This document shows positions 1 through 20,674 of a stretch of 20,956 bases of DNA, piece after piece. The stretch is from a virus. Both the position numbers and the translations under genes were made by a program. The DNA lies in IMG/VR virus record IMGVR_UViG_3300010885_026914, positions 1 through 20,956 of that record; one strand, 5' to 3'. The notes below the pieces were generated by a model. It saw only the letters and a program-made list of their open reading frames with translations. It did no database searches and was not told the DNA's origin. Positions within the stretch are counted from its first letter, which is position 1, and every line of letters begins with the position of its first letter.

Positions 1-180
1 AATAATATCACTCAAATCATCTGTTCTGCCATCATATGCAGAAATTCTAGTATAATTTTCAATTTCCCAATATTTAAATTGTTCTTCCATATATTGTTTT
101 CTTTCTGGTTGCCCATCAAGATTTAAATAATAAATTGGAGGAATATTTTTAAATTTATATGCAGATTTATTTTTATCCAT
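1..180 (-). CDS. GT25-family glycosyltransferase, N-terminal part (runs off the left edge)
   Basis: Only the first 60 residues are in the window; the reading frame is open to base 1. The protein reads IYYLNLDGQPERK at residues 16-28, which is the hallmark start of GT25 (LOB/LPS-type) glycosyltransferases, followed by a Trp-Glu-Ile-Glu-Asn stretch and Arg-Ile-Ser-Ala-Tyr-Asp-Gly, the usual 'R..A.DG' segment of the family. GT25 enzymes move galactose or related sugars onto LPS or protein. The ATG at 180 lies inside the 3' end of the upstream glycosyltransferase (8-base overlap, ATGGATAA), so it should be translationally coupled to it. The acceptor and sugar cannot be inferred, and the catalytic acidic motif is outside the window. 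The match rests on about 30 residues. Confidence 0.72.
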   Translation of the reverse strand, partial: MDKNKSAYKFKNIPPIYYLNLDGQPERKQYMEEQFKYWEIENYTRISAYDGRTDDLSDII

Positions 181-2509: not shown

Positions 2510-2539
2510 AACTATAATTTTTTAAATATTTTATGAAAA

Positions 2540-3223: not shown

Positions 3224-3236
3224 TTTTTATATAAAA

Positions 3237-4513: not shown

Positions 4514-4515
4514 AA

Positions 4516-5334
4516 TTAGTTTTTCTCTTTTTTGATGTAAACAATAATATTACTACTATACCACTCTTCTACTTTATTCGAATCATCTACAAGAAAATTA
4601 TCTGGAAGAGTACTAATTGTTTTTTTATGTTCTTCCATTCTTTCATAATTATCTGGATTTCGGACAATATAACCAAAATTAGATTTAGAAACAAATTTAT
4701 CAAAATAAATTAATTGTGTATTCAAATCACATTCTGATAAAGAATTGACAGCAATCGTCAAATCTATTTCCTCATCTTCAAATTTATGTAATTCATCACA
4801 AGGAAGTGTTTTTACCTTTCCGTTAAGATGTGGAAAATTAGAAATATATTTATCAATCAATTTACAAGTTTCTGGTAGATCTACCAAAGTATATTGATCA
4901 AATTCAAAAAATCCAGAAAGAATTAAACACAATCCACCATATCCACCACCAATTTCTACAATATTTTTTAATTTTGATCTATCTCCAAATTTATCAATAA
5001 ATGAAATGATATCAATAGCATTAAAAGCAAATTTAAGAGTAGTGGGAGAAAATTCTCCTACTTCAGGATCAACGTAAATATCTGGATTACCAAGAGTATC
5101 ATTGATTCTAAATTTATCTATGTTATCTAAAAATGTTTTATAGTTTTCATGTGATTTGACTGCTTGAAGGTAATAGTCAAAAAATAATTTAGGAGCTCCC
5201 TCCAAGATAGTTGTATAACCACCATCCTGCTTAAAGTTTTCAAACCTTTCGTCATCGCTTGCACACTCAATACAAGATTGGGCATATAGTTCCATCATCT
5301 TATCTGAAATAGCGTTCCATCCGTGAATAGTCAT
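4516..5334 (-). CDS. putative sugar O-methyltransferase
   Basis: The 272-residue protein has a long alpha-helical N-terminal region (1-105) and then a Rossmann methyltransferase core: NIVEIGGGYGGLCLIL (124-139), YTLVDLPETCKL (strand 2 with acidic Asp), and IDLTIAVNSLSEC. The long N-terminal helical part plus 'EIGGGYGGL' and 'VDLPE' is the pattern of the family annotated as putative sugar O-methyltransferase. It would place methyl groups on a saccharide or sugar-nucleotide in the cytosol. It lies seven bases after the GT11-like gene and two bases before the Methyltransf_11 gene, so two methyltransferases are adjacent here. The family call is from memory of these motifs; substrate position is unknown. 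Confidence 0.75.
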   Translation of the reverse strand: MTIHGWNAISDKMMELYAQSCIECASDDERFENFKQDGGYTTILEGAPKLFFDYYLQAVKSHENYKTFLDNIDKFRINDTLGNPDIYVDPEVGEFSPTTLKFAFNAIDIISFIDKFGDRSKLKNIVEIGGGYGGLCLILSGFFEFDQYTLVDLPETCKLIDKYISNFPHLNGKVKTLPCDELHKFEDEEIDLTIAVNSLSECDLNTQLIYFDKFVSKSNFGYIVRNPDNYERMEEHKKTISTLPDNFLVDDSNKVEEWYSSNIIVYIKKEKN

Positions 5335-5341
5335 ATGTTTT

Positions 5342-6328
5342 TTAAGAATATTGAATGATAACTCCAGAAGTATCTGGATTAATTACATTAGTATAACGAC
5401 GATGTTCTTGCCAACATTCATCCCCATTTTTTAAGTTTCCATTTCTGTCCATATATGTCCATTCAGTTACAATAGAATCAACAGGTCTCCACCAACCATC
5501 AGAATAATTCCAATCAAACCAATACATAGGAACAATAATATTTTGAAGATTAGTAGATAACCAAACTGGCCAAAATGAAAAAGTTGAGGATGACATAATA
5601 ACATTTTTTGCTGTATGGAGAATAGTATAATCAATTGAAAGTGGACCTCCCTTCATTTGATACCAACCAATTTTATAATTAGGTCCACCAGGTTCATTGG
5701 AAACTGCTGCACCAACTACTTCAATTCCAGGTATATGTTTTCTAGCAAGATCTACATCATCAGTGACAATTACAAATCGCATATCACTACGAAGTTCTTT
5801 CATTCTTTGAATTGCCATTTGATAATATTGAGGTGGCAAAAATGAATGACCAGTGGAATAATCTCCACCCCTAAAGTGAATAACACAAATATCATCAGAA
5901 GAATAATCATAAATGATTTTATCTTCGTCTACTTTACACCATTCACGAATATCATCTTTTCTATCTTCAATGTAAAGAAGATTTTGAAATGTACCATCAA
6001 TCTTTGTATTATCTGGAAGAAAGAAAAGACCGTGATCAATAGGATTCATATCATGTTGGTGTCTACCTTCTTTGTGGTGACCCTCTTGCCTTTCACGATA
6101 CCAATGGTCAATCCCTTCAGGAAGACTATCTGGAGGACCTCCATCTGGACTAGATCCCCCTACAACATCTTCTCCCCAAAAATAAGGCATCCATCCAGCG
6201 CCTTTCCATAGATTTTTTCCTTTAATTCCATAATTATACCCAAGCTTTTCTGCAATAATTCTTGTTACTACTGATGCCCAAATCTGATTTCCTAAACCAG
6301 ATCCAAGATACATTTCATTTACTAACAT
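5342..6328 (-). CDS. GT11-like glycosyltransferase with a long Gly/Pro/His-rich insertion
   Basis: This 328-residue protein has a fucosyltransferase fold signature: GLGNQIWASVVTRIIAEKLG (11-30), HFRGGDYS (151-158) matching the HxRxGD donor-binding motif, FVIVTDD (185-191), and SSSTFSFWPVWL (246-257) matching the C-terminal SSxSWW-type motif. It differs from the other GT11 proteins here by about 70 residues (roughly 40-110) rich in Gly, Pro, His and Trp between the first and second motifs, and by a longer C-terminus with many Trp. GDP-L-fucose or GDP-L-galactose is the expected donor type. It overlaps the preceding exostosin-like gene by seven bases. It is more divergent than the two close GT11 copies, so acceptor specificity is probably different. 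Confidence 0.78.
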   Translation of the reverse strand: MLVNEMYLGSGLGNQIWASVVTRIIAEKLGYNYGIKGKNLWKGAGWMPYFWGEDVVGGSSPDGGPPDSLPEGIDHWYRERQEGHHKEGRHQHDMNPIDHGLFFLPDNTKIDGTFQNLLYIEDRKDDIREWCKVDEDKIIYDYSSDDICVIHFRGGDYSTGHSFLPPQYYQMAIQRMKELRSDMRFVIVTDDVDLARKHIPGIEVVGAAVSNEPGGPNYKIGWYQMKGGPLSIDYTILHTAKNVIMSSSTFSFWPVWLSTNLQNIIVPMYWFDWNYSDGWWRPVDSIVTEWTYMDRNGNLKNGDECWQEHRRYTNVINPDTSGVIIQYS

Positions 6329-7263
6329 ATTTTTTTTAAATTTCCATTTACAATTTTATCAAAAAAAGATGAAAGTGTCAATGATGTCAAATTCATTTCT
6401 TGTGTTTGTTTAAATAGATAATCATTTTGTTCTAAAAGTTCTTTTGTGATTTCAGAATATTCATTTACAAAAAGAACAGGATAATCTTTAAACAAAACTT
6501 CAAGATATGGATGTCTTTTCATGATAGGAACTCTTCTCATATAGAGAACTTCCCAATTACGATGACAATCTATAGCATTTCCACGAGGACAAATCATAAA
6601 TTTTGATTGACTCAAATTATAAAGAAATACAGAATATGGAACTCTTTTATCATGAACTTCTGCCCATGATTTATTATAAAATAATTCTTTAATGCCTCTG
6701 CGTTCAATATTTGATCCTTCATCGTGACTTACATACAATAAACCTGGAGGATTTTTTGGAATATGCTTCATGCAATTTTCAATATCATCAATCCTATCAT
6801 CACCTGGATGCATCTTTCTTTGAAGTCCATATGGAGCAGGAATAACTTTACCTCCATGACTTATAGCATTGACAGCAGAAATACAAAGAACATTATCAGG
6901 AATCGCATCAAAAATATATTCATCAATTGGAGTATCTTCCAAATTAGTAAAAATAATAAATTTCATATCTGGAAAATGAGAGCATAATTTTAAAAGATCA
7001 CTTGTTTCCATCAATGATTCTATAATTGAACGATCTTCTTTTTTTACTTCTACAATATATCTTTTATATAAACGAATATTGTCAATAAACAAAGTCATAT
7101 AATTACGACTTTTTTTTATTTCAAATAATTTTTCGATAAACTCCAAATTTAATAAATTTGCATCTTTCATAAAAGATGTATAGATATTTCCCCATTGACC
7201 TCCCTGATCTCCAAAGGAATAATCACATAATTTTGAAAGTTCTACACCTTCAATTAATTCCAT
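6322..7263 (-). CDS. exostosin/RXYLT1-like glycosyltransferase (GT47-type C-terminus)
   Basis: In this 313-residue protein the C-terminal third holds KFMICPRGNAIDCHRNWEVL (221-240) and then MRRVPIMKRHPYLEVL. This is the conserved nucleotide-sugar-binding block of exostosin-like and RXYLT1 C-terminal domains (C-P-R-G-N, H-R-x-W-E, then V-P-I). The middle has IPAPYGLQRK and LLYVSHDEGSNIERRG, corresponding to the preceding GT-B strand and an Arg-rich loop. No transmembrane anchor is present, unlike eukaryotic members, as expected for a phage or bacterial enzyme. It probably transfers a sugar from a nucleotide donor. It overlaps the upstream GT17 gene by ten bases and the downstream GT11-like gene by seven. 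Confidence 0.72.
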   Translation of the reverse strand: MELIEGVELSKLCDYSFGDQGGQWGNIYTSFMKDANLLNLEFIEKLFEIKKSRNYMTLFIDNIRLYKRYIVEVKKEDRSIIESLMETSDLLKLCSHFPDMKFIIFTNLEDTPIDEYIFDAIPDNVLCISAVNAISHGGKVIPAPYGLQRKMHPGDDRIDDIENCMKHIPKNPPGLLYVSHDEGSNIERRGIKELFYNKSWAEVHDKRVPYSVFLYNLSQSKFMICPRGNAIDCHRNWEVLYMRRVPIMKRHPYLEVLFKDYPVLFVNEYSEITKELLEQNDYLFKQTQEMNLTSLTLSSFFDKIVNGNLKKIC

Positions 7264-8108
7264 GGTTTGATGACTTTAATGTATTTTTCTTGATTATTTA
7301 AAATATATTCTGGATAAGAATCATCAATTGGAACAGTTGTCAACAATCCACGATTCAATGGATCAATTCCCTTTTCTATTTTCTCTTCTGCATTATCTAC
7401 AACGGATGGAATATTACATTCAGTGTGTTCGTATGATTGCATCTTTAATCTAAAATTATCAGCATCACCAAAACAACTCCAGTGCCATCCACCTTGTTCT
7501 ATTTTATAAGAACTTCTATGTTGATTTCTCAACATATCAACTGAAGATTCGGAAAGAACCTTAAATGTTGAAATTCTTGTTCCCATCCAATTTTCTTGAC
7601 AAAGACAATTCAATTTATAATAAAAAGCTCTTTGAAGACAAACATAATGGGTTAATGGATCAAACCATTCTAAATTTTTAAGAATTAAAGGATTGATAAT
7701 TTCATCCGCATCACTAGTAAGAACAATATCATCATCATTTATACAAAAATTAACTAATCCATAGATACTACTATCACGATTAAAAATAGCTCTTTTAAAT
7801 CTCAATTCATACGTATCATAAGGAATTCCATCTAAATTCAATTCATTAAGGGGAGTATGATATTTTCTTTTTTCCATATATTCCGAATAGTCATTTGGAA
7901 TGACTTCAGTTACATTATGAATAATCTTATGATTGAATTTTTCAAACCTATCTTTATTTTCTTGATAATAAAGGGGTTTTGGGTTTCCACTTACAGTCCA
8001 AGGAGATTCCGTCAAAACAAAATAATCTACAACATCATTTAAGATGTTTAATCTCATTTCTAATAAATCAAGTTCATTAAAAAAAATAAAAGAATCAAAT
8101 ATTCTCAT
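7254..8108 (-). CDS. GT17-family glycosyltransferase
   Basis: The 284-residue protein begins MRIFDSFIFFNELDLLEMRL and has VLTESPWTVSGNPKPL (31-46) and IVLTSDADEIINP (128-140). This is the strand order and wording of GT17 (beta-1,4-N-acetylglucosaminyltransferase III-like) enzymes, with the Asp-Ala-Asp-Glu at 133-136 as metal/donor site. RAIFNRDSS supplies the usual basic segment. GT17 in bacteria and phages is found in surface-polysaccharide clusters. The ATG overlaps the stop of the upstream gene as ATGA. GlcNAc transfer is the family activity, not demonstrated here. Confidence 0.85.
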   Translation of the reverse strand: MRIFDSFIFFNELDLLEMRLNILNDVVDYFVLTESPWTVSGNPKPLYYQENKDRFEKFNHKIIHNVTEVIPNDYSEYMEKRKYHTPLNELNLDGIPYDTYELRFKRAIFNRDSSIYGLVNFCINDDDIVLTSDADEIINPLILKNLEWFDPLTHYVCLQRAFYYKLNCLCQENWMGTRISTFKVLSESSVDMLRNQHRSSYKIEQGGWHWSCFGDADNFRLKMQSYEHTECNIPSVVDNAEEKIEKGIDPLNRGLLTTVPIDDSYPEYILNNQEKYIKVIKPWN

Positions 8109-8896
8109 TGATTTTTATACTCCAAAATAAATTTTCTTTGTTGTTCATTGTTTTTCCAAGTTTTTAGTTGAATATAATTTTCCAAATTCATCATTTGGAC
8201 TGTAATATCAGAATCAAATAACATTTCTGGATTTAAATGCTCATCAAGATACAAATCACTACAATAAAAATTTTTCAAATTATTTGAACATAGTGCTGCC
8301 GCAACTGCAAATGTTCCCGTACCAGAAGATGCAAGATTTTTTGTTCTCAACAAAGTAGAAAAATCTTCATCAATAGAAGAAGACTGAATAGTTACTTTGT
8401 TTATTTTTTTAAGTTCATCAACTATTGGATTATAATTATCTGGTTCAGTTACTACAATTATTTTAGCATACTCATCAACCAAATTCAAATAATAGCAAAG
8501 AGGATTTGGAACATAGTCATGAGGGGGATTATGTTCATGTGCAAAAATATCTCCACTACGAATATGAATAACTAAAGTATCTTTATCAAATGAAGATCCA
8601 ATTTTAAATTTAAATTTAGGAACAATATAATCTTTTGCTACTCTACCAATATTTTGATAAAAATATTTAATATTAATATCAAAGTCTTTATTTTGAGTAT
8701 TGTAATGAAAAAATCTATTGGGTCTGGTTATAGTTTTATTTTCATTGTTTAATACTACTTGATCAATTAATTCATGTTCTGGGCTAAAAAATCCATCTTC
8801 ATGAATTTCAGAAAACAACACTCCATTACAAATTTGTTGAATATTATTTCCAAATCTCCCGTACCAATGGGAGATTGTATTTAAATAATTACTCAT
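8105..8896 (-). CDS. fucosyltransferase-fold glycosyltransferase (divergent GT11/NodZ-like)
   Basis: A 263-residue protein with GRFGNNIQQICNGVLF (13-28), corresponding to the first GT11 motif, and LVIHIRSGDIFAH (108-120), the HxRxGD donor phosphate-binding motif shared by alpha-1,2, alpha-1,6 and protein O-fucosyltransferases. It also has IIVVTEPDN (146-154) and a C-terminal LASSGTGTFAVAAALCS (188-204) in place of SSxSWWGAWL. The three motifs are in the correct order, but it is too divergent for me to fix the family. The likely donor class is GDP-L-fucose or GDP-L-galactose. It is coupled by ATGA overlaps at both ends, to the FkbM gene upstream and the GT17 gene downstream. Confidence 0.68.
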   Translation of the reverse strand: MSNYLNTISHWYGRFGNNIQQICNGVLFSEIHEDGFFSPEHELIDQVVLNNENKTITRPNRFFHYNTQNKDFDINIKYFYQNIGRVAKDYIVPKFKFKIGSSFDKDTLVIHIRSGDIFAHEHNPPHDYVPNPLCYYLNLVDEYAKIIVVTEPDNYNPIVDELKKINKVTIQSSSIDEDFSTLLRTKNLASSGTGTFAVAAALCSNNLKNFYCSDLYLDEHLNPEMLFDSDITVQMMNLENYIQLKTWKNNEQQRKFILEYKNQ

Positions 8897-9525
8897 AAAA
8901 ATTTTTGATTAATATAAAATGCGTCACCCCAAGTTCCACCCATCCAGTCAGTTTCAACTCTAACTAAATCATAAGAAGATAAAAATTCATCAATCTCTTG
9001 AATGAGAGCATTATTTTCATAAACTTCAGCATTGTTTACTTCGGTATAAACTGCATCAATTTTTTCTAAAGTTTTTAAAGCACCCTTAAGAACTTCCAAT
9101 TCATATCCTTGCGTATCCATATTAATAAAATTATAAGTATGGTTTTCATTAATTGCAAAATACGAATCAAGAGTAATCATTTCAACTTCTTCTGTCCTGT
9201 CAAATTTAATATCAGGATATTGGGTTAAAACAATTTTTGGTTTTAAAATAGAACTACAAAGTCCATCTTCATTGCAGATCATTTCAATATTTTTATTACT
9301 ATTACCCAATGCTTTATTTACTAAAATAATATTTTCAAAATTAAGTTCATTTGCAACTTTAGAAAGTTTTTCAAATGGACCTTTTTGTGGTTCAAATATT
9401 AAAATATTTTCTACATTTGAATTTTTGTAACTTGGAAGTTCTTGTCCAATATGACCTCCGATATGAATTACACCACTAACATCAATTTTATACTTATGGA
9501 CTAACGAAGAAAAACTAATTAACAT
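8893..9525 (-). CDS. FkbM-family SAM-dependent methyltransferase
   Basis: The 210-residue protein has the FkbM plan: GVIHIGGHIGQE (18-29, motif I), ILIFEPQKGPFEKL (41-54), IILVNKALGN (strand 3 with the typical N.A.G), VEMITLDSYF, FINMDTQGYELEVLKGA (the D-x-x-G-x-E-x-x-V-L-x-G hallmark) and AVYTEVN. FkbM proteins methylate hydroxyls on sugars and polyketides; a sugar O-methyl is likely here. Its C-terminus Gly-Gly-Thr-Trp-Gly-Asp-Ala-Phe-Tyr is the usual terminal strand. It overlaps the downstream gene as ATGA and is separated by three bases from the next methyltransferase upstream. Confidence 0.88.
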   Translation of the reverse strand: MLISFSSLVHKYKIDVSGVIHIGGHIGQELPSYKNSNVENILIFEPQKGPFEKLSKVANELNFENIILVNKALGNSNKNIEMICNEDGLCSSILKPKIVLTQYPDIKFDRTEEVEMITLDSYFAINENHTYNFINMDTQGYELEVLKGALKTLEKIDAVYTEVNNAEVYENNALIQEIDEFLSSYDLVRVETDWMGGTWGDAFYINQKFL

Positions 9526-9528
9526 TTT

Positions 9529-10221
9529 TTAAATTGCAAAGATACATTTTGTACTTTCTTTTGAAATTCTACTAGAATTTATAAATTTCTCAACAATTTC
9601 TGGATTTACTACTTGTGGATCAACATACCAATCTTCATAGGGATTATTCAAATTTGCTACATTTCTAACTACAAGTTGATATCCAAGAGATAAAAGTATT
9701 TCCATAGCCTCTTCACCTGCATCTGGACCATCTTTATAAGAATCAGTTTCATATGTAATCACAGAAAATCTATACTCATCAAGAGGAAGTGCTTTAAGAG
9801 CATTTAATGTCTGCCAAGCAGGTTCAATATCTACTTGAAGATAATCAATTTGTTTTGGAAATTTTTTTTCTTCAAATAATTTTGTATAATCAAAAGTCAA
9901 AGCATCCGCACAAATACATTTATTTTCACGTATTGAATTATATCCATTTACTTTTTCTGGATCAATTTCAAAAGAAACTCCATTCCAATTAAATTGAGTT
10001 TCCAAAAGATACGTATTGCTAATAATTACACCATGGTCACCACCAATCTCAACATATGTTCCATCTTTTTTTCCATCAAGAATACTGAGAGCAAACATAT
10101 CTTGAAATGCTTGAGAATAATTATTCTCAATATTTTCTACACCCGAAAATTTATATCGGAGTTTTTCCAAATCTTTTTTAAAATACCGATTACAATCGGG
10201 AAAAATAAATTCTTCAGTCAT
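9529..10221 (-). CDS. FkbM-like methyltransferase (atypical)
   Basis: In this 230-residue protein YSQAFQDMFALSIL (35-48) followed by GTYVEIGGDHGVIISNT (54-70) and GVSFEIDP (81-88) matches the FkbM-related proteins that start 'SQ..QD..V' and carry motif I with an acidic residue after strand 2. IDYLQVDIEPAWQTLNAL takes the place of the usual I-D-x-E-G-x-E-x-x-V-L-x-G loop, so the Gly-x-Glu part is altered (Pro-Ala-Trp). Either the substrate loop differs or the enzyme is a divergent relative. It overlaps the upstream dehydrogenase gene by eight bases. A role in methylating the cluster's glycan is inferred from context. Confidence 0.75.
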   Translation of the reverse strand: MTEEFIFPDCNRYFKKDLEKLRYKFSGVENIENNYSQAFQDMFALSILDGKKDGTYVEIGGDHGVIISNTYLLETQFNWNGVSFEIDPEKVNGYNSIRENKCICADALTFDYTKLFEEKKFPKQIDYLQVDIEPAWQTLNALKALPLDEYRFSVITYETDSYKDGPDAGEEAMEILLSLGYQLVVRNVANLNNPYEDWYVDPQVVNPEIVEKFINSSRISKESTKCIFAI

Positions 10222-11014
10222 AAATACCTCTTATTTTTTTATTATAATCCCAAGCTGCTTGTAGCAATTCAGAATTAATATTATTTTCATTTAATGTGTG
10301 AATAAGTGCGTTAATGTCTTTGGGAAAACAATAACCACCAAATCCCAATTTACCATCTGGTCCAGGAACTTTAGTGTGATGAGTTCCAATTCTATCATCC
10401 TTTACAATTGCATCTTTAACTTTATCGTAATTAATATTGAAACTATTACAAGTTTCATAAAGATTATTAAAATACGCAATTTTTAATGCCAAAAAAGAAT
10501 TTGAAAAATATTTAATTGTTTCTGATTCTTTAGATTGAACTATGTATAAAGGAGTATCATTCCACTCTGGAAAAATATCATAAAGAAATTCCCCAAACTG
10601 TTTTGCGTAAGAATAATCTCCTCCAACTACATTTCTATTACAATGCAAAAAATCATTTTTTGCATTTTCTGCAGTGAGAAATTCTGGATTATGTAAAATT
10701 TTAAGATCAAGTCTCAAACTGCAAAGTTGATCTGTTGTGCCAATAGGTACTGTAGATTTAATTACAAATAATCCAGATATGTTATTTGGAACTTCATTAA
10801 AAAAATTAAAAATATAAGAAGTGTCACAAGTTCCATCTTCCATCATTGGTGTAGGAAGACAAACAAAAATTACATCACAAGAAAGTACCTCATCGTATGA
10901 ATTTAATGTTTTTTCTGGAAAAACATCAAAAACTTTTGTAGAAATCCTATCTTTAAAATTTTGATAGATTGCATTTCCCACAAACCCATTTCCAATAATA
11001 CCTACAGTTTTCAT
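10214..11014 (-). CDS. UDP-glucose/GDP-mannose dehydrogenase-like protein lacking the C-terminal domain
   Basis: Counting from ATG 11014, this 266-residue protein has GIIGNGFVG (5-13, NAD site), VFVCLPTP-like VIFVCLPTP (48-56), KSTVPIGTT (86-94), NPEFLTAENA (109-118), SETIKYFSNSFLALKIAYFNN (Glu-Lys-Asn catalytic helix, about 164-184) and FGGYCFPKD (225-233) with the catalytic Cys229. Family members usually exceed 400 residues because a third domain binds the nucleotide; here the protein stops about 33 residues after the Cys motif. All oxidation residues are kept, so it may use another substrate or dimer partner. The TTG upstream start at 11023 is rejected: ATG 11014 forms ATGA with the upstream stop and has GGA at proper spacing. 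Confidence 0.82.
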   Translation of the reverse strand: MKTVGIIGNGFVGNAIYQNFKDRISTKVFDVFPEKTLNSYDEVLSCDVIFVCLPTPMMEDGTCDTSYIFNFFNEVPNNISGLFVIKSTVPIGTTDQLCSLRLDLKILHNPEFLTAENAKNDFLHCNRNVVGGDYSYAKQFGEFLYDIFPEWNDTPLYIVQSKESETIKYFSNSFLALKIAYFNNLYETCNSFNINYDKVKDAIVKDDRIGTHHTKVPGPDGKLGFGGYCFPKDINALIHTLNENNINSELLQAAWDYNKKIRGIYD

Positions 11015-12003
11015 TTTTTCCAATAATCGTAAATATCTTTTGTGACTTCATAATCCATAGTTTTAACTTTTCTATTTGGTTGTTTCATTGCCCAAACAAA
11101 CATACTATCAATGAGTTCTTCAAGATTAGTATTATCTTCAAATTGAAGAATTGTTTTTGCTTTTGTATGATCACAATATGCATGTTTTACTTCATGCCTT
11201 GGTTCGCCATGTTCAATTGGAACATCATAACCATACTTTTTACCTATTTTTTGAACTGTATCTGCAACTTCGTTTAGAGTGAAATATTTGTCAGCACCAA
11301 TATTAAAAGTTTCTCCATCACAATTAGTAAGAAGTTTGTCAAATGGTTCCATATAATATTTGATATCAGAAAATGCTCTGGTTTGTTCCCCATCACCATA
11401 AACTAAAATTGGTTCTCCATTTAATGTTTTACGAATAAAAATACCAATCACATTACGATACTTATCCCAAATGTTTTGATAAACACCAAGAACATTATGA
11501 GGACGAACAATATTATACCGAAGCCCAAACTGTTCATGAGCAAGTTTAAGATCACACTCTACGGCATATTTGGCAATACCATATGGATCAATTGGTTGAG
11601 GTTTTTTATCTTCTGTAAATGGAGGTTCTTGTTCTCCATAAACAGCCATACTGGACGTAAATATCATTTTAGTATTATGAGTAATACACTCATTAATCAA
11701 ATTTGCAGAGCAAATAAGATTATTTCTATAGTTAAAATTACGAATAAAAGGAGAAAGTCCTTCTGCAGCATATGCAGCAAAGTGCAAAAGAACATCAGGT
11801 TTGTGCTCTTCAAAAAGTTCTACAACTTTTTTTCTTCTTTCAAGATTAAATTTAACAAAAGTAAAATTTTCTGCCTTTGGAATAAATGCTTTATATCCTC
11901 CAGATAAATCATCAATACCAATTACTTCATGACCATTAGAAATAAGGTGACGACCATAATTAGCACCAAGCAATCCAGCGCATCCTGTTACAAAAATTTT
12001 CAT
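11011..12003 (-). CDS. NAD-dependent epimerase/dehydratase, UDP-glucose 4-epimerase-like
   Basis: Starting at ATG 12003 the protein (330 residues) opens MKIFVTGCAGLLGANYG, an extended-SDR dinucleotide motif (G-x-x-G-x-x-G, 7-13), with IDDLSGG at 30-36 (acidic residue for NAD). VLLHFAAYAA (71-80), TSSMAVYG (116-123) and YGIAKYAVE (141-149, catalytic Tyr141/Lys145) follow. It then continues VRPHNVLG, VYGDGEQTRAFSDIKYYMEP and FNIGADKYFTLNEVA, the GalE/RmlB-like ending. It probably interconverts a UDP- or GDP-sugar for the transferases downstream. An in-frame TTG at 12024 is less likely as start; ATG 12003 gives an ATGA overlap with the GT11 stop. Substrate is not determinable. Confidence 0.85.
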   Translation of the reverse strand: MKIFVTGCAGLLGANYGRHLISNGHEVIGIDDLSGGYKAFIPKAENFTFVKFNLERRKKVVELFEEHKPDVLLHFAAYAAEGLSPFIRNFNYRNNLICSANLINECITHNTKMIFTSSMAVYGEQEPPFTEDKKPQPIDPYGIAKYAVECDLKLAHEQFGLRYNIVRPHNVLGVYQNIWDKYRNVIGIFIRKTLNGEPILVYGDGEQTRAFSDIKYYMEPFDKLLTNCDGETFNIGADKYFTLNEVADTVQKIGKKYGYDVPIEHGEPRHEVKHAYCDHTKAKTILQFEDNTNLEELIDSMFVWAMKQPNRKVKTMDYEVTKDIYDYWKK

Positions 12004-12857
12004 ATTATTTTCCAATTTGAACAATATAGGTCTTTAGTTTCTTTGTCTGCATATGCAGAACCAAACCACATTTGAGGAGCAATGACTTTTTTGTTGGGAT
12101 TTTCAATTAACCAAGCACCCCACCAACTCATACTACTATTAGCAATTATAGCATGAGAACACAAAGACATCAAGCATAAGTCAGCATATGGAGTATAAGA
12201 ACCATCTGCATATTTATCAACTGGTTCAGAAATAAGAAATCTATCACTAGAAAAAAATTCTTGTTCCTTTACCCATTCTGGAGAATCAGAAAAAACAATT
12301 ACTGGTTGAGTATCATCAAATTCAGAAAGTGCTTTTTCGTAATATTCTACTGGTTGAACAGGATGTTGATCAGAACAATTTACATATGCCCATTTAAATC
12401 CACGAGGATCAACAAGATTTGGATCACCACGACGAACATGAAGCATAATAGGTTCCTGTCCTTCCAGAGATTGCATCATCTCTTTGCATGGTTCTAGATG
12501 CTCATCATGAAATGTAAAATCTTTGCGAATTTCATCTGAAATATGTTTGAAATATTTTTCGGATTGATAGAATCCATGAAGACTTACATTATCTGGACAT
12601 TGATTAAACAGTTCCTCATCAAAATGAAAAAATCTTTCTTGAACATAATTCAAATCTTCATGATAAGAGAGATTATTATCTTTTACAGATTCCAATTTAA
12701 AACAATTATGAAGACTATAGTTTTCAATACCAGTTTTATGAAAGGGAGGAATGCACCAATTATATCCATGATGATCGGCAATACCTCTTACTGCCGCATA
12801 TTCAAACATTTGGTTTCCCAGTCTACCCAAATTACCAATTTGATTAAATGCTAACAT
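12000..12857 (-). CDS. GT11-family fucosyltransferase-like glycosyltransferase (copy 2)
   Basis: A 285-residue GT11 protein with GRLGNQMFEYAAVRGIAD (11-28), LHVRRGDPN (139-147), PVIVFSDSPEW (185-195), and NSSMSWWGAWL (240-250). Compared with the copy at 1736-2509, the N-terminal 40 residues, the SEKYF block, the FSDxP motif and the SWWGAWL motif are nearly the same. This copy has extra loops near 41-70 and 146-170 (WAYVNCSDQHPVQP). The N-terminal coding DNA of the two also looks alike, so they are paralogues. The expected donor is GDP-L-fucose or its 6-hydroxy analogue GDP-L-galactose. Five bases separate it from the methyltransferase upstream. Confidence 0.9.
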   Translation of the reverse strand: MLAFNQIGNLGRLGNQMFEYAAVRGIADHHGYNWCIPPFHKTGIENYSLHNCFKLESVKDNNLSYHEDLNYVQERFFHFDEELFNQCPDNVSLHGFYQSEKYFKHISDEIRKDFTFHDEHLEPCKEMMQSLEGQEPIMLHVRRGDPNLVDPRGFKWAYVNCSDQHPVQPVEYYEKALSEFDDTQPVIVFSDSPEWVKEQEFFSSDRFLISEPVDKYADGSYTPYADLCLMSLCSHAIIANSSMSWWGAWLIENPNKKVIAPQMWFGSAYADKETKDLYCSNWKII

Positions 12858-12862
12858 TAAAT

Positions 12863-13615
12863 TTATTCTGCTAAAATTTCTAATTCATTTTCAATTAAAT
12901 CAATATCTTGACCCCAATCAATAAAATTAGTATTTTCTTTATTGAAGTAAAGATTATTTACGGTATTTCTTGCAGAAAAAATTTCATCCCATTTAATATT
13001 TTTTTTGCATTTATCAAAAAATGATAAATTTTTAATTTGAACAAAAGTCATACCATAACTTTTTGGATAACATTTTACAATCAAATCTTCATTTTCAAAA
13101 TCAATCATTTCATCTAACATAAAAAATTCCATAATTGCTTCTTCAACACGGCCATATTTAATTCCACCATGAGTTTCTGCCGATCCAGGTTCCCAATGAG
13201 AATCATGAAATACAAAATATCCATTTTCTTTAATATGGTTTGACCAAAAATATAATTCACAAAGAACTTGTTCTCTAAAATGGATAGTATCTACAAATAT
13301 AATATCGAATGGATCTTCATCCCAATTTTTTCCTAAAGTTACACTATCCGCTTGGTAACAAAGATAATTTTCATTTACAAAACGAGCACCCATTTGACTA
13401 AATACATCAAACATCAAATCACATCCACAAACTTGATTATTTCTTTCTTTTGATTCATAAGAAAGAATCGCAGAAGAAGGACCAAACCTAACACCAAGAT
13501 CCATAAATCTTGCATTATTCATAGTTTTAACGAGATCTAAAAGAATCCAAGAATTTTCTCCCAAATCACAATGAGGTTCGTTAATAAAATTTTGAAGTTC
13601 AATAATATTAGACAT
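12863..13615 (-). CDS. class I SAM-dependent methyltransferase (Methyltransf_24/CmcI-like)
   Basis: From ATG 13615 the protein has 250 residues. MDLGVRFGPSSAIL (38-51) is motif I, CGCDLMFDVFS (63-73) gives the acidic residue, FDIIFVDTIHFREQV (103-117) is strand 4, and GYFVFHDSHW (132-141) is strand 5 with the His-Asp-Ser-His signature of cephalosporin-hydroxylase/Methyltransf_24-like proteins. The frame runs on to a TTG at 13660, but ATG 13615 is preceded by GGAG at good spacing and overlaps the upstream epimerase stop by eight bases. It probably modifies a sugar; which one is unknown. Confidence 0.78.
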   Translation of the reverse strand: MSNIIELQNFINEPHCDLGENSWILLDLVKTMNNARFMDLGVRFGPSSAILSYESKERNNQVCGCDLMFDVFSQMGARFVNENYLCYQADSVTLGKNWDEDPFDIIFVDTIHFREQVLCELYFWSNHIKENGYFVFHDSHWEPGSAETHGGIKYGRVEEAIMEFFMLDEMIDFENEDLIVKCYPKSYGMTFVQIKNLSFFDKCKKNIKWDEIFSARNTVNNLYFNKENTNFIDWGQDIDLIENELEILAE

Positions 13616-14459
13616 AATTTTTCTCCATATCTTTAAAGACTTTTGATATTCCTTGTTCAATGCTTGTTTTTGGCATCCACCACTTCATAATATAAGGATC
13701 AGCAACATTCCTTTTATCCATTTGAACATTATCTTTTTCAATAGATGGTTGCAGTTTAACATCATATTTACCAATCAAATTAAATTGTCCCATAATTATA
13801 TTGGCAATATCAATGATTTTTGTAGAATGGAAACTGGTAATATGCAATTCATCTTCTGATGTAAAATCAGTATAATTATCCATAATGATTTCAAGTGCAT
13901 CGCAACAATCTTCTGCATAAAGAAACTCACGTTCTTCTTGACCATCTGTAAGCATATCAATTACACCAGTCTCAAATCCTTTGCGAATAAAGTCTGTGAT
14001 CGCATGTGACTTATCATAATCTTTTTCAATACCATAAACATTCCAGAATTTAACGATCAGTCCATTGAGTGATTTGGTATACAGTTCACCAACGTTCTTA
14101 AGAACTCCGTATGGAGAGTAACTCATATTACTCATTTGAGATGAGGCAAAAATAAATCTCTTATTATACTTTTGAAGAAGACCAAAGGCATTTGCCATCA
14201 AACGAATATTGTTATTAATAAACTGGAAAGTATGTTGGTACTTTTTAAGATAACGTGATCCACCCACATCAAATGCAAGGAAGAATACAAAGTCTGCAGT
14301 CTCAATTGCATTTTCAAGATATTGATTGGGAATAACAGTCATATCATGATTAAGAGTTTCCACCTTATCAAAATCAATAACTACGTGACCTTTACTGCGA
14401 AGATATTCCGAAAGATAGGCACCGATCTGCCCACTGGATCCTAAAATTGTAATTTTCAT
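13608..14459 (-). CDS. NAD-dependent epimerase/dehydratase (extended SDR)
   Basis: This 283-residue extended SDR shows ILGSSGQIGAYL (5-16) as the dinucleotide motif, FVFFLAFDVGGSRY (57-70), IFASSQMSN (103-111) and SPYGVLKNVGE (115-125, catalytic Tyr117/Lys121). VKFWNVYG (136-143) and REFLYAEDCCDAL follow, the latter equal to the F-x-Y-x-x-D-x-x-x-A element before the substrate domain. It is somewhat shorter than GalE/RmlB. It sits directly between the GDP-mannose 3,5-epimerase (ATGA overlap) and a methyltransferase, so it may act on the same nucleotide sugar, for example as a later epimerase or reductase. The specific reaction is not readable from sequence. Confidence 0.82.
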   Translation of the reverse strand: MKITILGSSGQIGAYLSEYLRSKGHVVIDFDKVETLNHDMTVIPNQYLENAIETADFVFFLAFDVGGSRYLKKYQHTFQFINNNIRLMANAFGLLQKYNKRFIFASSQMSNMSYSPYGVLKNVGELYTKSLNGLIVKFWNVYGIEKDYDKSHAITDFIRKGFETGVIDMLTDGQEEREFLYAEDCCDALEIIMDNYTDFTSEDELHITSFHSTKIIDIANIIMGQFNLIGKYDVKLQPSIEKDNVQMDKRNVADPYIMKWWMPKTSIEQGISKVFKDMEKNYV

Positions 14460-15499
14460 TTTTTAATTTGCCCACCAATCCATTCATATGTTTTGCGAAT
14501 ACCTTCTTCAAGAGATTGTGAATAATCCCAACCAAGTTCTCTACGAACTACGTCATTATTAGAATTACGTCCACGAACCCCAAGAGGTCCATCAATATGG
14601 TTCTTTTCTACTTTCTTTCCAGCAACTTTTGCAGCAGTTTCTACAAGTTGATTGATAGTTACCATTTCCTCTGAACCAATATTTACTGGTCCAATGAAAT
14701 CAGAATCCATCATACGACGAGTTGCTTCAATACACTCATCAATATAAAGGAATGAACGAGTCTGCAAACCATCACCCCAGACTTCAATCGTACCACCGTC
14801 TTCTGGAAGATATGCTACTTTACGACAAATTGCTGCTGGTGCTTTCTCGCGTCCACCTTCCCATGTTCCTTCGGGGCCAAAGATATTATGATAACGAGAT
14901 ACCCTAACAGGTATGCCATGATTCCTATGATAGGCAAAGTAAAGACGTTCCGAAAAAAGTTTTTCCCATCCATATTCAGAGTCTGGTGCAGCAGGATAAG
15001 CGGATTCTTCACGGCAGTCAGGATTATCAGGATCAAGTTGATTGTGCTCTGGATACATACATGCAGACCCAGAATAGAAGATCTTGGTCTTATTAACACC
15101 AATCCTTTCATTCATCTGATGTTGCATCTCAAGGACGTTGAGATTAATTGTAACTGAATTATGCATAATATCTGCATCATTCTCACCAGTGAAAACAAAT
15201 CCTGCTCCACCCATATCAGCAGCAAACTGATAGATTTCATCAAATGATTGAATATAACGATAAGGAACTGAATTGTAGAAGTTACCTCTATCTCCTTTAT
15301 ATTCAAGAACACGACGAACAAAATCTATATCACGAAGATCTCCCTGAACAAATTCATTTGCTTCAGTAGGAGAATACTCAGGTCTCTTAAGATCTACACC
15401 ACGAACCCAATATCCTTCGGAACGTAGTCTTTTAACCATGTGACTTCCAATAAAGCCACCAGCACCAAGAACAAGTGCTTTTTTAATATATTGACTCAT
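14456..15499 (-). CDS. GDP-mannose 3,5-epimerase-like enzyme (GDP-L-galactose forming)
   Basis: This 347-residue extended SDR is the best-identified enzyme of the cluster. Beyond the generic GAGGFIGSH (12-20) and YGWEK (176-180), it carries the specific landmarks of plant/bacterial GME: FAADMGGAGFV (92-102), SGSACMYPE (143-151, Cys147 as a catalytic acid/base), RYHNIFGPEGTWEGGREKAP (202-221, Lys219 the second acid/base), VWGDGLQTRSF (240-250), PVNIGSEEMV and GPLGVRGRNSNN (304-315). GME turns GDP-D-mannose into GDP-L-galactose and GDP-L-gulose. It is the first gene after a sigma70-like promoter and has visibly higher G+C than the genes after it. There is an insertion near 62-82 relative to the plant enzyme. 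Loss of specificity towards another GDP-hexose is possible. Confidence 0.88.
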   Translation of the reverse strand: MSQYIKKALVLGAGGFIGSHMVKRLRSEGYWVRGVDLKRPEYSPTEANEFVQGDLRDIDFVRRVLEYKGDRGNFYNSVPYRYIQSFDEIYQFAADMGGAGFVFTGENDADIMHNSVTINLNVLEMQHQMNERIGVNKTKIFYSGSACMYPEHNQLDPDNPDCREESAYPAAPDSEYGWEKLFSERLYFAYHRNHGIPVRVSRYHNIFGPEGTWEGGREKAPAAICRKVAYLPEDGGTIEVWGDGLQTRSFLYIDECIEATRRMMDSDFIGPVNIGSEEMVTINQLVETAAKVAGKKVEKNHIDGPLGVRGRNSNNDVVRRELGWDYSQSLEEGIRKTYEWIGGQIKK

Positions 15500-15561: not shown

Positions 15562-15661
15562 TCTTTCCTATATCTTTCCCCAACAATTTTTTAAGGAAAT
15601 TGTAAACCTAAGAGGGTCATAATTGACTCCACCAGTACTTTTAAAGTCTCTCCGTGACTAA
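15562..15661. other. non-coding spacer with an AT-rich hairpin
   Basis: No gene is supported between the tRNA 3' end and the terminator. On the minus strand there is a seven-base-pair hairpin ACAATTT...AAATTGT near 15582-15602. There is also a nine-codon ORF (MTLLGLQFP) starting near 15618 with GGTGGAG upstream; it is too short to call. Confidence 0.4.
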
Positions 15662-15749
15662 TACGAGTGCCTGGATTCGAACCAGGTCAAAGCCGCTAAT
15701 CTGGCGGAAAGAGTTTATAAGGCTCCTCTGACTACCAAGTCTCACTCGC
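15662..15749 (-). tRNA. class II tRNA-like gene, isotype uncertain
   Basis: On the minus strand the acceptor arm pairs over seven positions (GCGAGTG with CACTCGT, one G-U), with discriminator A and no encoded CCA. The T arm is perfect: CCTGG-TTCGAAT-CCAGG. The D arm is short (GAC-TTGGTA-GTC) and a variable arm CCGC-CAGATTA-GCGG makes it a class II tRNA of about 88 nt. The anticodon arm folds as AGGAG-CTCTT around nine bases; with a C-A mismatch at 31-39 the loop is CTTATAA and the anticodon would be UAU, which does not fit class II identities (Leu, Ser, Tyr). UAA (Leu) would need A33. It starts six bases after the antitoxin-like stop codon and shares its promoter. Confidence 0.7.
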
Positions 15750-15755
15750 ATAAAA

Positions 15756-16029: not shown

Positions 16030-16188
16030 TCAAAATTTATCTAAATGATCTTCCAATCTAATCAAAAGACGTTCCACATCTTTTGTGTCTGGTCCACCAT
16101 CTTGTTTAGCATAAAAAATATAATCATCCAATGATACAGTAAGTAATTCAATATCATTTTTTGAAAGCTTTGGGGTTTCCCAACTCAT
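16030..16188 (-). CDS. small conserved-looking protein, unknown function (52 aa)
   Basis: A 52-residue ORF starting MSWETPKLSKNDIELL and ending LIRLEDHLDKF. It is acidic, has no Cys, no signal and no membrane segment, and looks like a small two-helix protein (YIFYAKQDGG in the middle, then DTKDVERLLIRLEDHL). Its support is positional: the ATG overlaps the stop of the zinc-ribbon gene as ATGA, and it fills the gap up to the next promoter exactly. I do not recognise a family. Confidence 0.65.
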   Translation of the reverse strand: MSWETPKLSKNDIELLTVSLDDYIFYAKQDGGPDTKDVERLLIRLEDHLDKF

Positions 16189-16439
16189 TTAATTTCAAAC
16201 TCCATTTTTCTAATTTTACGGTTTCTTCTTGCTTCTTGATATGCAAGATCTTCTCTTGTAAAAAGAGAAGATGAATTATTTTTTTGATCTGGTTTTGATA
16301 TTAATTCCACCAAAGTCAAATCTAATGCAGTAATTTTATCATCTTTTACTGTGGTTAAATTGTCGCATCCACAGCACTTAGTCTGTGTTGGGTGCGAGTG
16401 CAACTCTTTGTTGCACATTTTACATCTAATCTTTAACAT
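16185..16439 (-). CDS. zinc-ribbon protein, unknown function
   Basis: This 84-residue protein starts MLKIRCKMCNKELHSHPTQ and has C6-x2-C9 and C22-C23-x-C25, a compact zinc-ribbon-like N-terminus with two His (14, 16). A basic C-terminal helix, EARRNRKIRKMEFEIK, follows. I recall similar small CxxC/'SHPTQT-CCGC' proteins as conserved hypotheticals in T4-like cyanophages, so a phage regulatory or nucleic-acid-binding role is possible but unproven. It lies 51 bases after the Dps gene and overlaps the 52-residue ORF (ATGA). A TATAAT-like hexamer in the spacer lacks a convincing -35, so read-through from the Dps promoter seems more likely. Confidence 0.75.
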   Translation of the reverse strand: MLKIRCKMCNKELHSHPTQTKCCGCDNLTTVKDDKITALDLTLVELISKPDQKNNSSSLFTREDLAYQEARRNRKIRKMEFEIK

Positions 16440-16490: not shown

Positions 16491-16925
16491 TTATTCAAGA
16501 AAAGATCTCAGCATCCAAACGAACTTGCCATGTGCTTCGTTTAAATCATCAACAAGATTGACAGTTCCTCTTGACTTTTGTGCTTCTGCTTCTTCAGCAA
16601 CTTCACCTAACATATCTATAATTTTTTTATGACCTTCAAGTAAATCTTCAATCATCTCCATTTCGGAAATATTAGTTTTTGCTTCTCCAACTCCAGATAC
16701 TTCTACAACTCTAGATAAAGAACTAATAGGTTTAATACTCAAAAATCTCATATGTTCTGATACACGATCAACTTCTTCTTGAATTGCCCCATATTGCTCT
16801 CCAAATAGATCATGAATTTGCTTAAAGTCAGATCCAACAATGTGCCAATGGTAAACCCAGGTTTTTTGAAATAGCAAAAAAAGTGACGCCTGAGCATCAC
16901 TTATGAGTTTAAACAATTTTTCCAT
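16491..16925 (-). CDS. dps: Dps-like miniferritin
   Basis: The 144-residue protein has the Dps/ferritin-like four-helix pattern: TWVYHWHIVGSDF (22-34), IHDLFGEQYGAIQEEVDRVSEHM (37-59), then an ILLE-like helix GHKKIIDMLGEVAEEAE and a final helix. All inter-subunit ferroxidase ligands are present: His26, His38, Asp53 and Glu57. Dps forms a 12-mer shell that oxidises iron with peroxide, stores it and can protect DNA. It is somewhat short and lacks a Lys-rich N-terminal tail, so direct DNA binding is less likely than iron/peroxide detoxification. A perfect late promoter octamer precedes it. Its neighbour upstream is a porin, which suggests an envelope/iron theme. A host-derived auxiliary metabolic gene is the likely origin. 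Confidence 0.9.
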   Translation of the reverse strand: MEKLFKLISDAQASLFLLFQKTWVYHWHIVGSDFKQIHDLFGEQYGAIQEEVDRVSEHMRFLSIKPISSLSRVVEVSGVGEAKTNISEMEMIEDLLEGHKKIIDMLGEVAEEAEAQKSRGTVNLVDDLNEAHGKFVWMLRSFLE

Positions 16926-16945
16926 TATACTAATACTGTTTCAAG

Positions 16946-16953
16946 TATTTATA
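16946..16953 (-). promoter_or_regulatory. T4-type late promoter (TATAAATA) for the Dps gene
   Basis: Minus strand TATAAATACTTG, a perfect match to the T4-like late -10 element TATAAATA with the favoured CT after it, 20 bases before the Dps ATG. T4-like phages read this element with the phage sigma factor gp55. Confidence 0.75.
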
Positions 16954-16963
16954 AAATAAAAAG

Positions 16964-16990
16964 AAAGACAAAATCCCCCGCAAGGGGGAT
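16964..16990 (-). terminator. strong intrinsic terminator after the porin gene
   Basis: On the minus strand ATCCCCC-TTGC-GGGGGAT (16973-16990) forms a seven-base-pair GC-rich stem followed by TTTGTCTTTC. It lies 26 bases after the porin stop codon and just before the Dps late promoter, insulating the two genes. Confidence 0.85.
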
Positions 16991-17016: not shown

Positions 17017-18498
17017 TCAGAAGGTGAACTTGGTCTGAACCACTCCACCCCAAGACGATTCATTTTGGAATCGTTGGTTGTTGCTTACATAGAAGATAGC
17101 AGGAGTGATGCTGATGTTGTCCGAAACTTGATACTTATAGAAGACTTCAAGCATCGTGGCATCATCACCAATGAAGTCAGAATTACCGGGTTGACCAACG
17201 GCAACACCAGCAGTATTACCTTGAGCAAATACATCAGACCACTGAAGTCCAACGAACCAAGAATCAGAATCGGTGGCACCAGTTTTAGAACCTTTGCCAT
17301 CTACATCATTATATCCATAACCAACTGAGATAGAAGGAACGAATCCACTCTGAGAAGGTTGCCAGTAAGCATTCAGAGCAATGCTATTGCTTTCCTGACC
17401 TGTGGCAAGAGCACCAGACCCTCCTCCAAGGGCATTAAAGGTGCGGACACGACTGCCTTCAGTACCATAACGGTAAGCAACCGCAGCACCCCACTGAGGA
17501 GCACGATAACCAACTTGTGCTAGGAAGTTCAATCCACTATCGGAATTGAAGACACCAGTTTCAGTGTTATCACCATCTTGAGAGACATAGTTCAGACCAG
17601 CAAGGAACCCTCCCTGACCTTTTGGAACTTGTTGCTTCCATTGAGCACCAAAACCAGCACCAGTTGCCTTGTTATAGACACCAGAGGCACCACCAAGTTG
17701 GAAGAAGTCAAGGATTTCCGACTTATAAGCAGAAGGAACCCATGCCATCTCTGTGTTACGAACCAGAGGACCAGCAGTTAAAGTTACACTCTTACCAACT
17801 GGGAACTGATAATACAGACGGTCAATCACAACTTGGTCGGCATAAGATTCTGCCTTATCAAGTTTGAATAGTGAAGAACTGGAACCAAAAGGATCAGAAC
17901 TGAAGTTACCAGAACGCAGACGAGTACGGAGCAAGTCCTTACCAGTGAACGAGGTATCAAAGTTCAGACGAACATCATAGTTAAATGCAGTATTACCTAC
18001 ATCAACACGTTTGTTAGTTTCAAGACCGGGAACGCCACCAAGAATAAAGTTTACTTCACCTTTGAGTTTGGTAGTGGTAGAGAATTGTGTTGCTTCCAAG
18101 TTTCCAACACGGTTCTCAAGACCATCTACACGAGCAGTGATAACAGTAAGTTCTGCATCAAACTCAGCAAGAAGTTTTTTAAGTTCATCGGTAGTTTCAG
18201 TTACACGATCTAGGCAAGCATTCAAAAGAGCAGCAGCTTCATAACGAGTCATTGCCTGACGACCCACAAAGGTGCCATTAGGATAACCTGCTACGCAACC
18301 ATAACGCTCTACAAGATTGCTAAGTGCCTGATATGCCCAATCAGTAGGTTGGACATCAGTAAATTGGGTAACGCTTGTGACTTGTTGTGCCGAGGCATAC
18401 TTATTGACATCCTCAGTATTGAGTTCTGCAGCATTCACCGCAGGAGCAATAAGACCCAGTGCAACAGGCACGAGCATTAGTTTTTTAAGAAAATTCAT
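17017..18498 (-). CDS. SLH-domain outer-membrane porin (cyanobacterial OprB/iron-uptake-porin type)
   Basis: The 493-residue protein has a Sec signal peptide (MNFLKKLMLVPVALGLIAPAVNA, cut before AE at 24), one S-layer homology domain at about 45-100 (FTDVQPTDWAYQALSNLVERYG, then GYPNGTFVGRQAMTRYEAAALL), and a coiled coil at about 103-137. A long barrel of alternating strands follows, ending VVQTKFTF with the terminal Phe of outer-membrane barrels. This is the plan of cyanobacterial SomA/SomB-like porins, in which the SLH domain grips the peptidoglycan-linked polymer. It is clearly richer in G+C than its neighbours, as expected for a gene taken from a host. It would insert into the host outer membrane and change its permeability to small solutes, possibly iron. 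The substrate is unknown. Confidence 0.9.
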   Translation of the reverse strand: MNFLKKLMLVPVALGLIAPAVNAAELNTEDVNKYASAQQVTSVTQFTDVQPTDWAYQALSNLVERYGCVAGYPNGTFVGRQAMTRYEAAALLNACLDRVTETTDELKKLLAEFDAELTVITARVDGLENRVGNLEATQFSTTTKLKGEVNFILGGVPGLETNKRVDVGNTAFNYDVRLNFDTSFTGKDLLRTRLRSGNFSSDPFGSSSSLFKLDKAESYADQVVIDRLYYQFPVGKSVTLTAGPLVRNTEMAWVPSAYKSEILDFFQLGGASGVYNKATGAGFGAQWKQQVPKGQGGFLAGLNYVSQDGDNTETGVFNSDSGLNFLAQVGYRAPQWGAAVAYRYGTEGSRVRTFNALGGGSGALATGQESNSIALNAYWQPSQSGFVPSISVGYGYNDVDGKGSKTGATDSDSWFVGLQWSDVFAQGNTAGVAVGQPGNSDFIGDDATMLEVFYKYQVSDNISITPAIFYVSNNQRFQNESSWGGVVQTKFTF

Positions 18499-19122: not shown

Positions 19123-19145
19123 AAAGAGGAGTATAGAACTCCTCA
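19123..19145 (-). terminator. intrinsic terminator after the lysozyme gene
   Basis: On the minus strand GAGGAGT-TCTAT-ACTCCTC forms a seven-base-pair stem followed directly by seven U (T-run ending near 19120, just before the next ATG at 19118). It ends the lysozyme transcript and overlaps the leader of the next gene. Confidence 0.8.
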
Positions 19146-19146
19146 G

Positions 19147-19154
19147 TATTTATT
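19147..19154 (-). promoter_or_regulatory. T4-type late promoter variant (AATAAATA)
   Basis: Minus strand AATAAATACTGAG, seven of eight to TATAAATA and keeping the ACT after it, 28 bases before the one-TM protein ATG at 19118. It lies between the lysozyme stop codon and its terminator. Confidence 0.55.
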
Positions 19155-19943: not shown

Positions 19944-20138
19944 TTAAAAATCCACAAAATAACCATTAATATAATCGAGTGATAATACTTCAAGATTTTC
20001 TTTTTGAATTACCCAATCACGGATTTCACTATAGATACATTCCGCATCTCTTGCTCTACCCTCTTCACATAAATCGCACATACGATTAATATGTTGTTGT
20101 ATCGTATTATTGCAGATTTTTTTGATATGAAGTTGCAT
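19944..20138 (-). CDS. small protein of unknown function (64 aa)
   Basis: A 64-residue protein, MQLHIKKICNNTIQQHINRM, then CDLCEEGRARDAECIYSEIRDWVIQ and a C-terminal hydrophobic YINGYFVDF. It appears fully helical with three Cys, one pair as CDLC, but too few ligands for a standard zinc finger. The start overlaps the nuclease gene by 32 bases; ATG 20138 is favoured because AGGAAGGA lies at suitable spacing upstream. A start at the internal Met20 would remove the overlap. No family is recognised. Confidence 0.6.
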   Translation of the reverse strand: MQLHIKKICNNTIQQHINRMCDLCEEGRARDAECIYSEIRDWVIQKENLEVLSLDYINGYFVDF

Positions 20139-20556
20139 TAAAGTAATCCTTCCTGAAATATCGGTTCATGACATTTGAATTGTAATACGCAGGAGTCCCA
20201 CTGTCAAGTGCTTCGGTCAGGACGTTGTTTAAAAATAATTGCCTCGTCTCTTCATAGTTTGTTTTACCTAATGTCTTATGAAGAGATACTATAGTTCTTT
20301 GGAACTTATCCTTTCCATGTTTCTTTATATCTTCTTTTAATTCAGGACAAGAACCATAATAATTTTTCCAATCACTTTCTTGTTTTACTTTTCTTTTCTT
20401 TCCTTTCGGTGTTCTAAAAGACCAAAAGTATTTTCTTCCCAAATATTTCCTTTGAGTTTCTTCGCAACTTATCAAATAAACAAATCCAAAATTCTCTTGA
20501 ATATCTTCTGTCTCAAAAACTTTTCCTTGATATAACCAAGGATTATCATAACTCAT
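20107..20556 (-). CDS. GIY-YIG/Seg-like putative endonuclease
   Basis: The 149-residue protein contains GFVYLISCEETQRKYLGRKYFW (24-45), in which F-V-Y and Y-L-G stand in for the GIY and YIG motifs at the usual 10-12 residue spacing. A basic loop KGKKRKVKQESDWKNYYGS (51-69) and a helix ending TNYEETRQLF (99-108) with a candidate metal-binding Glu follow. Similar proteins are annotated as putative endonucleases in T4-like phages. It has no obvious DNA-binding repeat, so it could be a freestanding homing-type nuclease or a host-DNA nuclease. A perfect late promoter octamer precedes it. The nuclease call is moderate because the first motif is degenerate. Confidence 0.7.
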   Translation of the reverse strand: MSYDNPWLYQGKVFETEDIQENFGFVYLISCEETQRKYLGRKYFWSFRTPKGKKRKVKQESDWKNYYGSCPELKEDIKKHGKDKFQRTIVSLHKTLGKTNYEETRQLFLNNVLTEALDSGTPAYYNSNVMNRYFRKDYFNATSYQKNLQ

Positions 20557-20588: not shown

Positions 20589-20630
20589 GATATAACTTAT
20601 CTTCAACCCTAACAGAGTGATTATAGTCAT

Positions 20631-20654
20631 AAAAAAAGCACCTGTCAAGGTGCT
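20631..20654 (-). terminator. intrinsic terminator after the partial virion protein
   Basis: Minus strand AGCACCT-TGAC-AGGTGCT, a perfect seven-base-pair stem with a four-base loop followed by seven U, 20 bases after the stop codon at 20675. Confidence 0.9.
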
Positions 20655-20674
20655 TAATAAATTGTAATATTATA

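Follow-up and report, generated by a model that had tools for sequence, protein, structure and literature searches.

A Dps-family miniferritin gene behind a conserved T4-type late promoter motif in a group of mostly uncultured cyanophages

The virus fragment analysed here, 20,956 bases in length and referred to as the window, carries a gene for a Dps-family miniferritin (dps) just downstream of a motif of the T4 late promoter type. This locus raises the question of whether dps is a resident gene of the phage late programme or a passive insertion, and of what a miniferritin might do in an infected cell. The first-pass annotation had proposed late control, with the product serving in protection against iron and peroxide stress or being packaged with DNA or virions.

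The Dps protein and its ferroxidase site

The dps gene lies at 16491-16925 (-), starts with ATG and encodes 144 amino acids. Sequence and modelling confirm its product as a Dps miniferritin with a predicted Dps fold: it matches Pfam Ferritin (E 2.4e-19) and PHROG 3636 (7.6e-30), conserves the ferroxidase ligands discussed below, and in its AlphaFold2 monomer model (pLDDT 86) is predicted to adopt a four-helix ferritin-like fold with a short BC helix, residues 70-76, between the long helices. The best structure match of the model is T. elongatus Dps (2c41), with Z 18.1, rmsd 2.9 over 144 residues and TM 0.84. This protein, B. subtilis MrgA and H. pylori NAP (HP-NAP) share with the phage Dps the fold and four ferroxidase ligands, but are about 26-27% identical to it in structure alignments and differ at the fifth ferroxidase position, where the phage protein has Gly.

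The 59 distinct phage Dps collected are 57-100% identical to that of the window, and dps is under purifying selection, since the median dN/dS between relatives is 0.10. Three divergent phage Dps, 191-196 amino acids in total length, bear acidic C-terminal extensions. Among 50,697 phage records the only close relative is the Dps of Synechococcus phage S-SRM01, a freshwater isolate from Singapore (QPX48251.1; 72.9% identity over the full length), from which a freshwater type would be expected for the dps-bearing phages. No close cellular relative emerged from two pattern scans across genomes of bacteria and archaea; the patterns were tuned to the window Dps, so that distant cellular Dps would escape them. 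The best-ranked cellular matches among plasmids are 29-35% identical. Dps-family proteins are also found in Escherichia phages of the ECBP2/SU10 kind, Bacillus phage G (gp346) and Bacteroides phage BS162P1, but these are 23-33% identical and belong to phages of unrelated hosts. Literature searches for Dps together with porin, or for ferritin, in cyanophages returned nothing relevant, and the main text of the S-SRM01 paper mentions neither Dps nor the porin described below (PMC8557907).

The first-pass annotation stated that all four ferroxidase ligands are conserved. This is correct for the residues H, H, D and E (E. coli 51, 63, 78 and 82), which correspond to H26, H38, D53 and E57 and, together with W27, are invariant in 59/59 phage Dps. 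The canonical ferroxidase centre, however, comprises five residues, the fifth being an Asp or Glu at E. coli position 67 whose carboxylate contacts iron site B via a water molecule (PMC6675082). The site of the window Dps is incomplete because Gly42 occupies this fifth position; the residue is Gly in 58 of the phage proteins and Arg in one, and Glu is found at the aligned position of MrgA, B. brevis Dps and HP-NAP. Judging from the sequence, ferroxidase activity may be slow or altered, although loss of residue 67 need not abolish it, as that residue normally binds through water. The absence of an acidic residue at position 67 is shared with NpDps4, which has a non-coordinating Asn there and uses O2 to oxidise Fe2+, no use of H2O2 being evident (PMC6675082). 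In contrast to the His-type cyanobacterial Dps, which are defined by a His at position 78 (PMC6675082), the phage proteins keep an invariant Asp there (D53), and they have Met at position 138, where the extra His of the His-type was placed by eye. Since both positions differ, the phage Dps is not of the His-type.

The late promoter motif and its conservation

A candidate T4-type late promoter, TATAAATACT, is located at 16944-16953 (-), as judged by motif count and conservation. The TATAAATA part (16946-16953) ends 20 nt before the dps ATG, in agreement with the perfect motif 20 bases upstream reported by the first-pass annotation. The 10-mer TATAAATACT occurs twice in the window against 0.16 expected, a count reached by 1 of 100 shuffles, and both copies stand just upstream of a same-strand ORF, namely dps (16925) and a GIY-YIG gene (20556). 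The 8-mer TATAAATA shows no excess in the window (2 sites against 3.6 expected), and its significance thus rests on position and cross-phage conservation. A terminator-like hairpin at 16973-16990 (-), recognised by consensus scan only, separates the upstream porin gene from the promoter motif and suggests that dps starts its own transcript. Scanning revealed neither a strong sigma-70-type promoter directly upstream of dps nor a clear early promoter, the only nearby candidate being a 9/12 match whose -10 box falls within the ORF.

Viral contigs were scanned with the window Dps, yielding 80 related loci, and further scans brought the number of loci with dps to 122; the contigs were found through dps or porin homology and are not an unbiased sample. 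Among these, NATAAATA is present in 58/58 distinct 60-base upstream regions of dps and TATAAATA in 56, with 14-22 nt between the end of the motif and the start codon, so that motif and late-promoter spacing are both conserved. The 40 bases upstream of the motif fall into 12 mutually dissimilar flank types. In 82/120 loci the motif comes directly after the end of a tRNA-Val gene, and the remaining loci have other sequence, some of them, including the window, with a terminator-like hairpin. A fixed motif amid changing flanks is the pattern expected of a promoter in use. NATAAATA is absent upstream of the neighbouring lysozyme and epimerase genes and of some small downstream ORFs.

Further evidence comes from phages carrying the late transcription machinery. 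NATAAATA has been described as the late promoter of cyanomyoviruses, S-PM2 included (PMC2984593), and the dps motif is a perfect match to the T4 form. In S-SRM01, whose annotation includes the late sigma factor gp55 and the late-promoter accessory protein gp33, 25 of the 35 TATAAATA sites are followed, 13-31 nt downstream, by an ORF that starts with ATG and encodes 80 amino acids or more, against 3.2% of random positions and an average of 7.7% for scrambled motifs, one of which reaches 48%. Genes behind NATAAATA in S-SRM01 include those for tail-fibre-like, baseplate, prohead-core and terminase proteins. An extended leader, NATAAATA-N-CTAAAAA, is common to 14 of 41 distinct dps leaders and several S-SRM01 virion genes, the tail-fibre-like gene among them. 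A gp55 relative is encoded in 8/8 large dps-bearing contigs tested; the window, at 21 kb, is too short to show gp55. In the literature searched, no such promoter was found to precede a gene for a miniferritin, which sets the locus apart from known late promoters.

Late control of dps is therefore well supported at the sequence level, and the claim that the gene is wired into the late programme rather than passively inserted has held up, given the conserved motif and position, the dN/dS of about 0.1, the gp55 genes on the same contigs and the lack of a strong sigma-70-type promoter directly upstream. The gene would be transcribed late, and, as T4 late transcription starts about 6 nt after the motif (PMC2988020), the dps transcript would be expected to begin at a similar distance. 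Against strictly late expression, the upstream tRNA arrays could be read through into dps before the late phase. Because gene and promoter arrangement are kept across a large group of related viruses, dps very probably has a function in the late stage of infection.

Several other elements of this kind were observed. The GIY-YIG gene mentioned above (20107-20556, -) encodes a SegE-like endonuclease, for which the PHROG 447 label 'NAD synthetase' looks wrong. Upstream of it, at 20620-20655 (-), a 12/12 sigma-70-type promoter is overlapped by a terminator-like stem-loop, an arrangement resembling the promoter-early stem-loops (PeSLs) of T4-type phages. At 19126-19153 (-) a terminator-like hairpin comes straight after the late motif AATAAATA and precedes the ATG of a phrog_3316 gene; a late start would consequently fall in the 5' arm of the hairpin. 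The same layout is found in S-PM2, S-SRM01 and many contigs. In S-SRM01, genes near 18021, 48503, 51314, 56026, 62477 and 192486, for example, have common leaders with paired late motifs and inverted repeats (e.g. TATAAATAGTATTGCGAACACAA...ATG). These genes include NUMOD/HNH endonuclease types, and the leaders possibly act as a translational lock on mobile endonucleases.

Genomic setting of dps

Downstream of dps, at 16185-16439 (-), lies a phrog_8074 gene for a small Cys-rich protein, zinc-ribbon-like by eye, which adjoins dps in nearly all loci reaching that far. As the gap is only 51 nt, phrog_8074 is possibly read on the dps transcript. Upstream, at 17017-18498 (-), is a gene for an SLH-OprB porin assigned to the NCBIfam 'iron uptake porin' subfamily (304 bits). 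Frequently the porin gene neighbours dps on its upstream side; some contigs match over no more than an SLH-domain-sized piece of the porin, and in others dps is many kilobases away from the porin. The usual order is tRNA-Gly, porin, tRNA-Val, dps and phrog_8074, often followed by tRNA-Ser and tRNA-Pro; these tRNA genes are missing from the window lineage. S-SRM01 has the same order of porin, dps and phrog_8074 and the same leader start, TATAAATACTTGAAA, but its sequence has diverged and it retains tRNA-Val upstream. Gene order alone hints at a link of dps, by way of the porin, to iron uptake.

The phrog_8074 gene is found in 89 cyanophage records. In S-CAM1, S-PM2 and DSL-LC03 it follows tRNA-Val directly, with no dps, and because these junctions are empty, dps was probably inserted at the tRNA-Val/phrog_8074 junction. 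The empty junction of S-PM2 carries CATAAATA. Those of S-CAM1 and DSL-LC03 have no NATAAATA, which implies that, relative to these two phages, the promoter arrived or evolved together with dps.

Two further features of the surroundings were noted. An unannotated tRNA-like element at 15661-15751 (-) has an 8-bp acceptor stem and a long variable arm; it scores 27.5 bits against Rfam tRNA-Sec, under the cut-off of 47, and ARAGORN is silent on it. A 97-nt stretch at this element is 99% identical to an unannotated region of S-SRM01 (32938-33034) and 81% identical in S-SKS1, and outside this stretch the window and S-SRM01 are diverged at the DNA level. Beyond it, some 15 kb of glycan-type genes run in one direction (173-15499, -), comprising glycosyltransferases, a fucosyltransferase-like gene, epimerases and methyltransferases, all assigned by eye except for the epimerase at 14456-15499.

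Proposed role and alternative explanations

The favoured reading, to which we give a probability of roughly 0.6, is that dps is a resident gene of T4-type cyanophages encoding a late miniferritin that binds ferrous iron in the infected cell. These phages make up a large group, most of them uncultured, and dps would belong to their late gene set. Late RNA polymerase, consisting of the host core with gp55/gp33 and the sliding clamp, would start about 6 nt downstream of TATAAATA and produce an mRNA with a short leader for dps, and possibly for phrog_8074 as well. The protein would form a 12-mer cage, taking up ferrous iron and oxidising it during late infection, at a time when the iron proteins of the photosynthetic cell are being degraded, and may in this way limit Fenton chemistry, the production of hydroxyl radicals from Fe2+ and peroxide. 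Iron is often limiting for cyanobacteria, and an infected cell is a source of both iron and peroxide. The iron chemistry and its benefit to the phage are presumed from family membership. The protection against iron and peroxide stress put forward by the first-pass annotation is thus plausible by homology, but one ferroxidase residue is missing.

That residue is the starting point for another explanation, in which the cage has been retained for a purpose other than rapid ferroxidation with H2O2, mainly metal binding or storage, or oxidation with O2 and not H2O2, as in atypical cyanobacterial Dps. The nearly constant Gly42, at a position where MrgA, B. brevis Dps and HP-NAP have Glu, and the precedent of NpDps4 with Asn at 67 and O2 as oxidant (PMC6675082) point in this direction; nevertheless the other four ligands are invariant, D53 is the canonical Asp and not the His of His-type sites, and the missing residue normally binds through water (PMC6675082). 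We regard this explanation as unlikely. A slightly bolder and more doubtful extension holds that a phage-specific Dps lineage with a remodelled, carboxylate-poor site manages iron in the dying cell together with the phage porin, either as a late store or by passing iron into progeny. The idea that Dps belongs to the virion or takes part in capsid assembly, and is made late for packaging with DNA or for attachment to the particle, finds some encouragement in the extended leader that dps shares with S-SRM01 virion genes, and in 'prohead protease' proteins of other phages that contain a Dps-like domain in predicted structures (BFVD A0A6J7XDU5, A0A6J7WPK9 and A0A6J7WIS1, from uncultured phages). 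Against it, the window Dps is acidic (pI 5.03, net charge -9.9 per subunit) and has no N-terminal tail, its first helix beginning at residue 2 in the AlphaFold2 model, and the gene sits in a tRNA/accessory island outside the head and tail gene blocks. Not every Dps has a DNA-binding N-terminal tail; of this one, acidic and tailless, no binding to DNA through a basic tail would be expected. The packaging with DNA suggested earlier is accordingly disfavoured, and a virion role of any kind appears quite improbable.

Two alternatives concern the gene and its leader. The 20 nt between TATAAATA and the ATG (16926-16945, -) contain an imperfect inverted repeat, AATACT...AGTATT, which begins in the end of the promoter motif and occurs in varied forms in most relatives. 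The layout matches that of T4 genes e, soc and 49, whose hairpin lock mechanism has been reviewed (PMC3014915), and an extra lock as in gene e would hide the start in RNA read through from the tRNA array and leave it open in late-promoter RNA, which is without the 5' arm. The repeat covaries, with a mean stem of 5.9 bp compared with 5.1 (sd 0.12) for swapped halves and 3.9 for shuffled sequences, in a test inflated by sequence relatedness; two loci have stems of 8-10 bp, but the majority are short and A/U-rich. When the RNAs were folded, the predicted openness of the start region was on average the same (0.38 in read-through against 0.40 in late RNA), for which reason a lock is not claimed; it is improbable, and would supplement the late-miniferritin account, not replace it. 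The least probable explanation makes dps a neutral passenger of a tRNA-island hot spot behind a neighbour's promoter. While dps does resemble an insertion into a variable region when compared with S-CAM1, S-PM2 and DSL-LC03, and the empty S-PM2 junction carries CATAAATA, the motif is kept across the 12 flank types, NATAAATA is lacking at the other two empty junctions, and the dN/dS of about 0.1 largely refutes neutrality.

The late-miniferritin reading can be tested now, as an isolate with the same cassette exists, S-SRM01 on Synechococcus KCZYC6. A conserved late phage miniferritin beside an iron-type porin gene suggests that iron is controlled late in infection by a widespread group of cyanophages.
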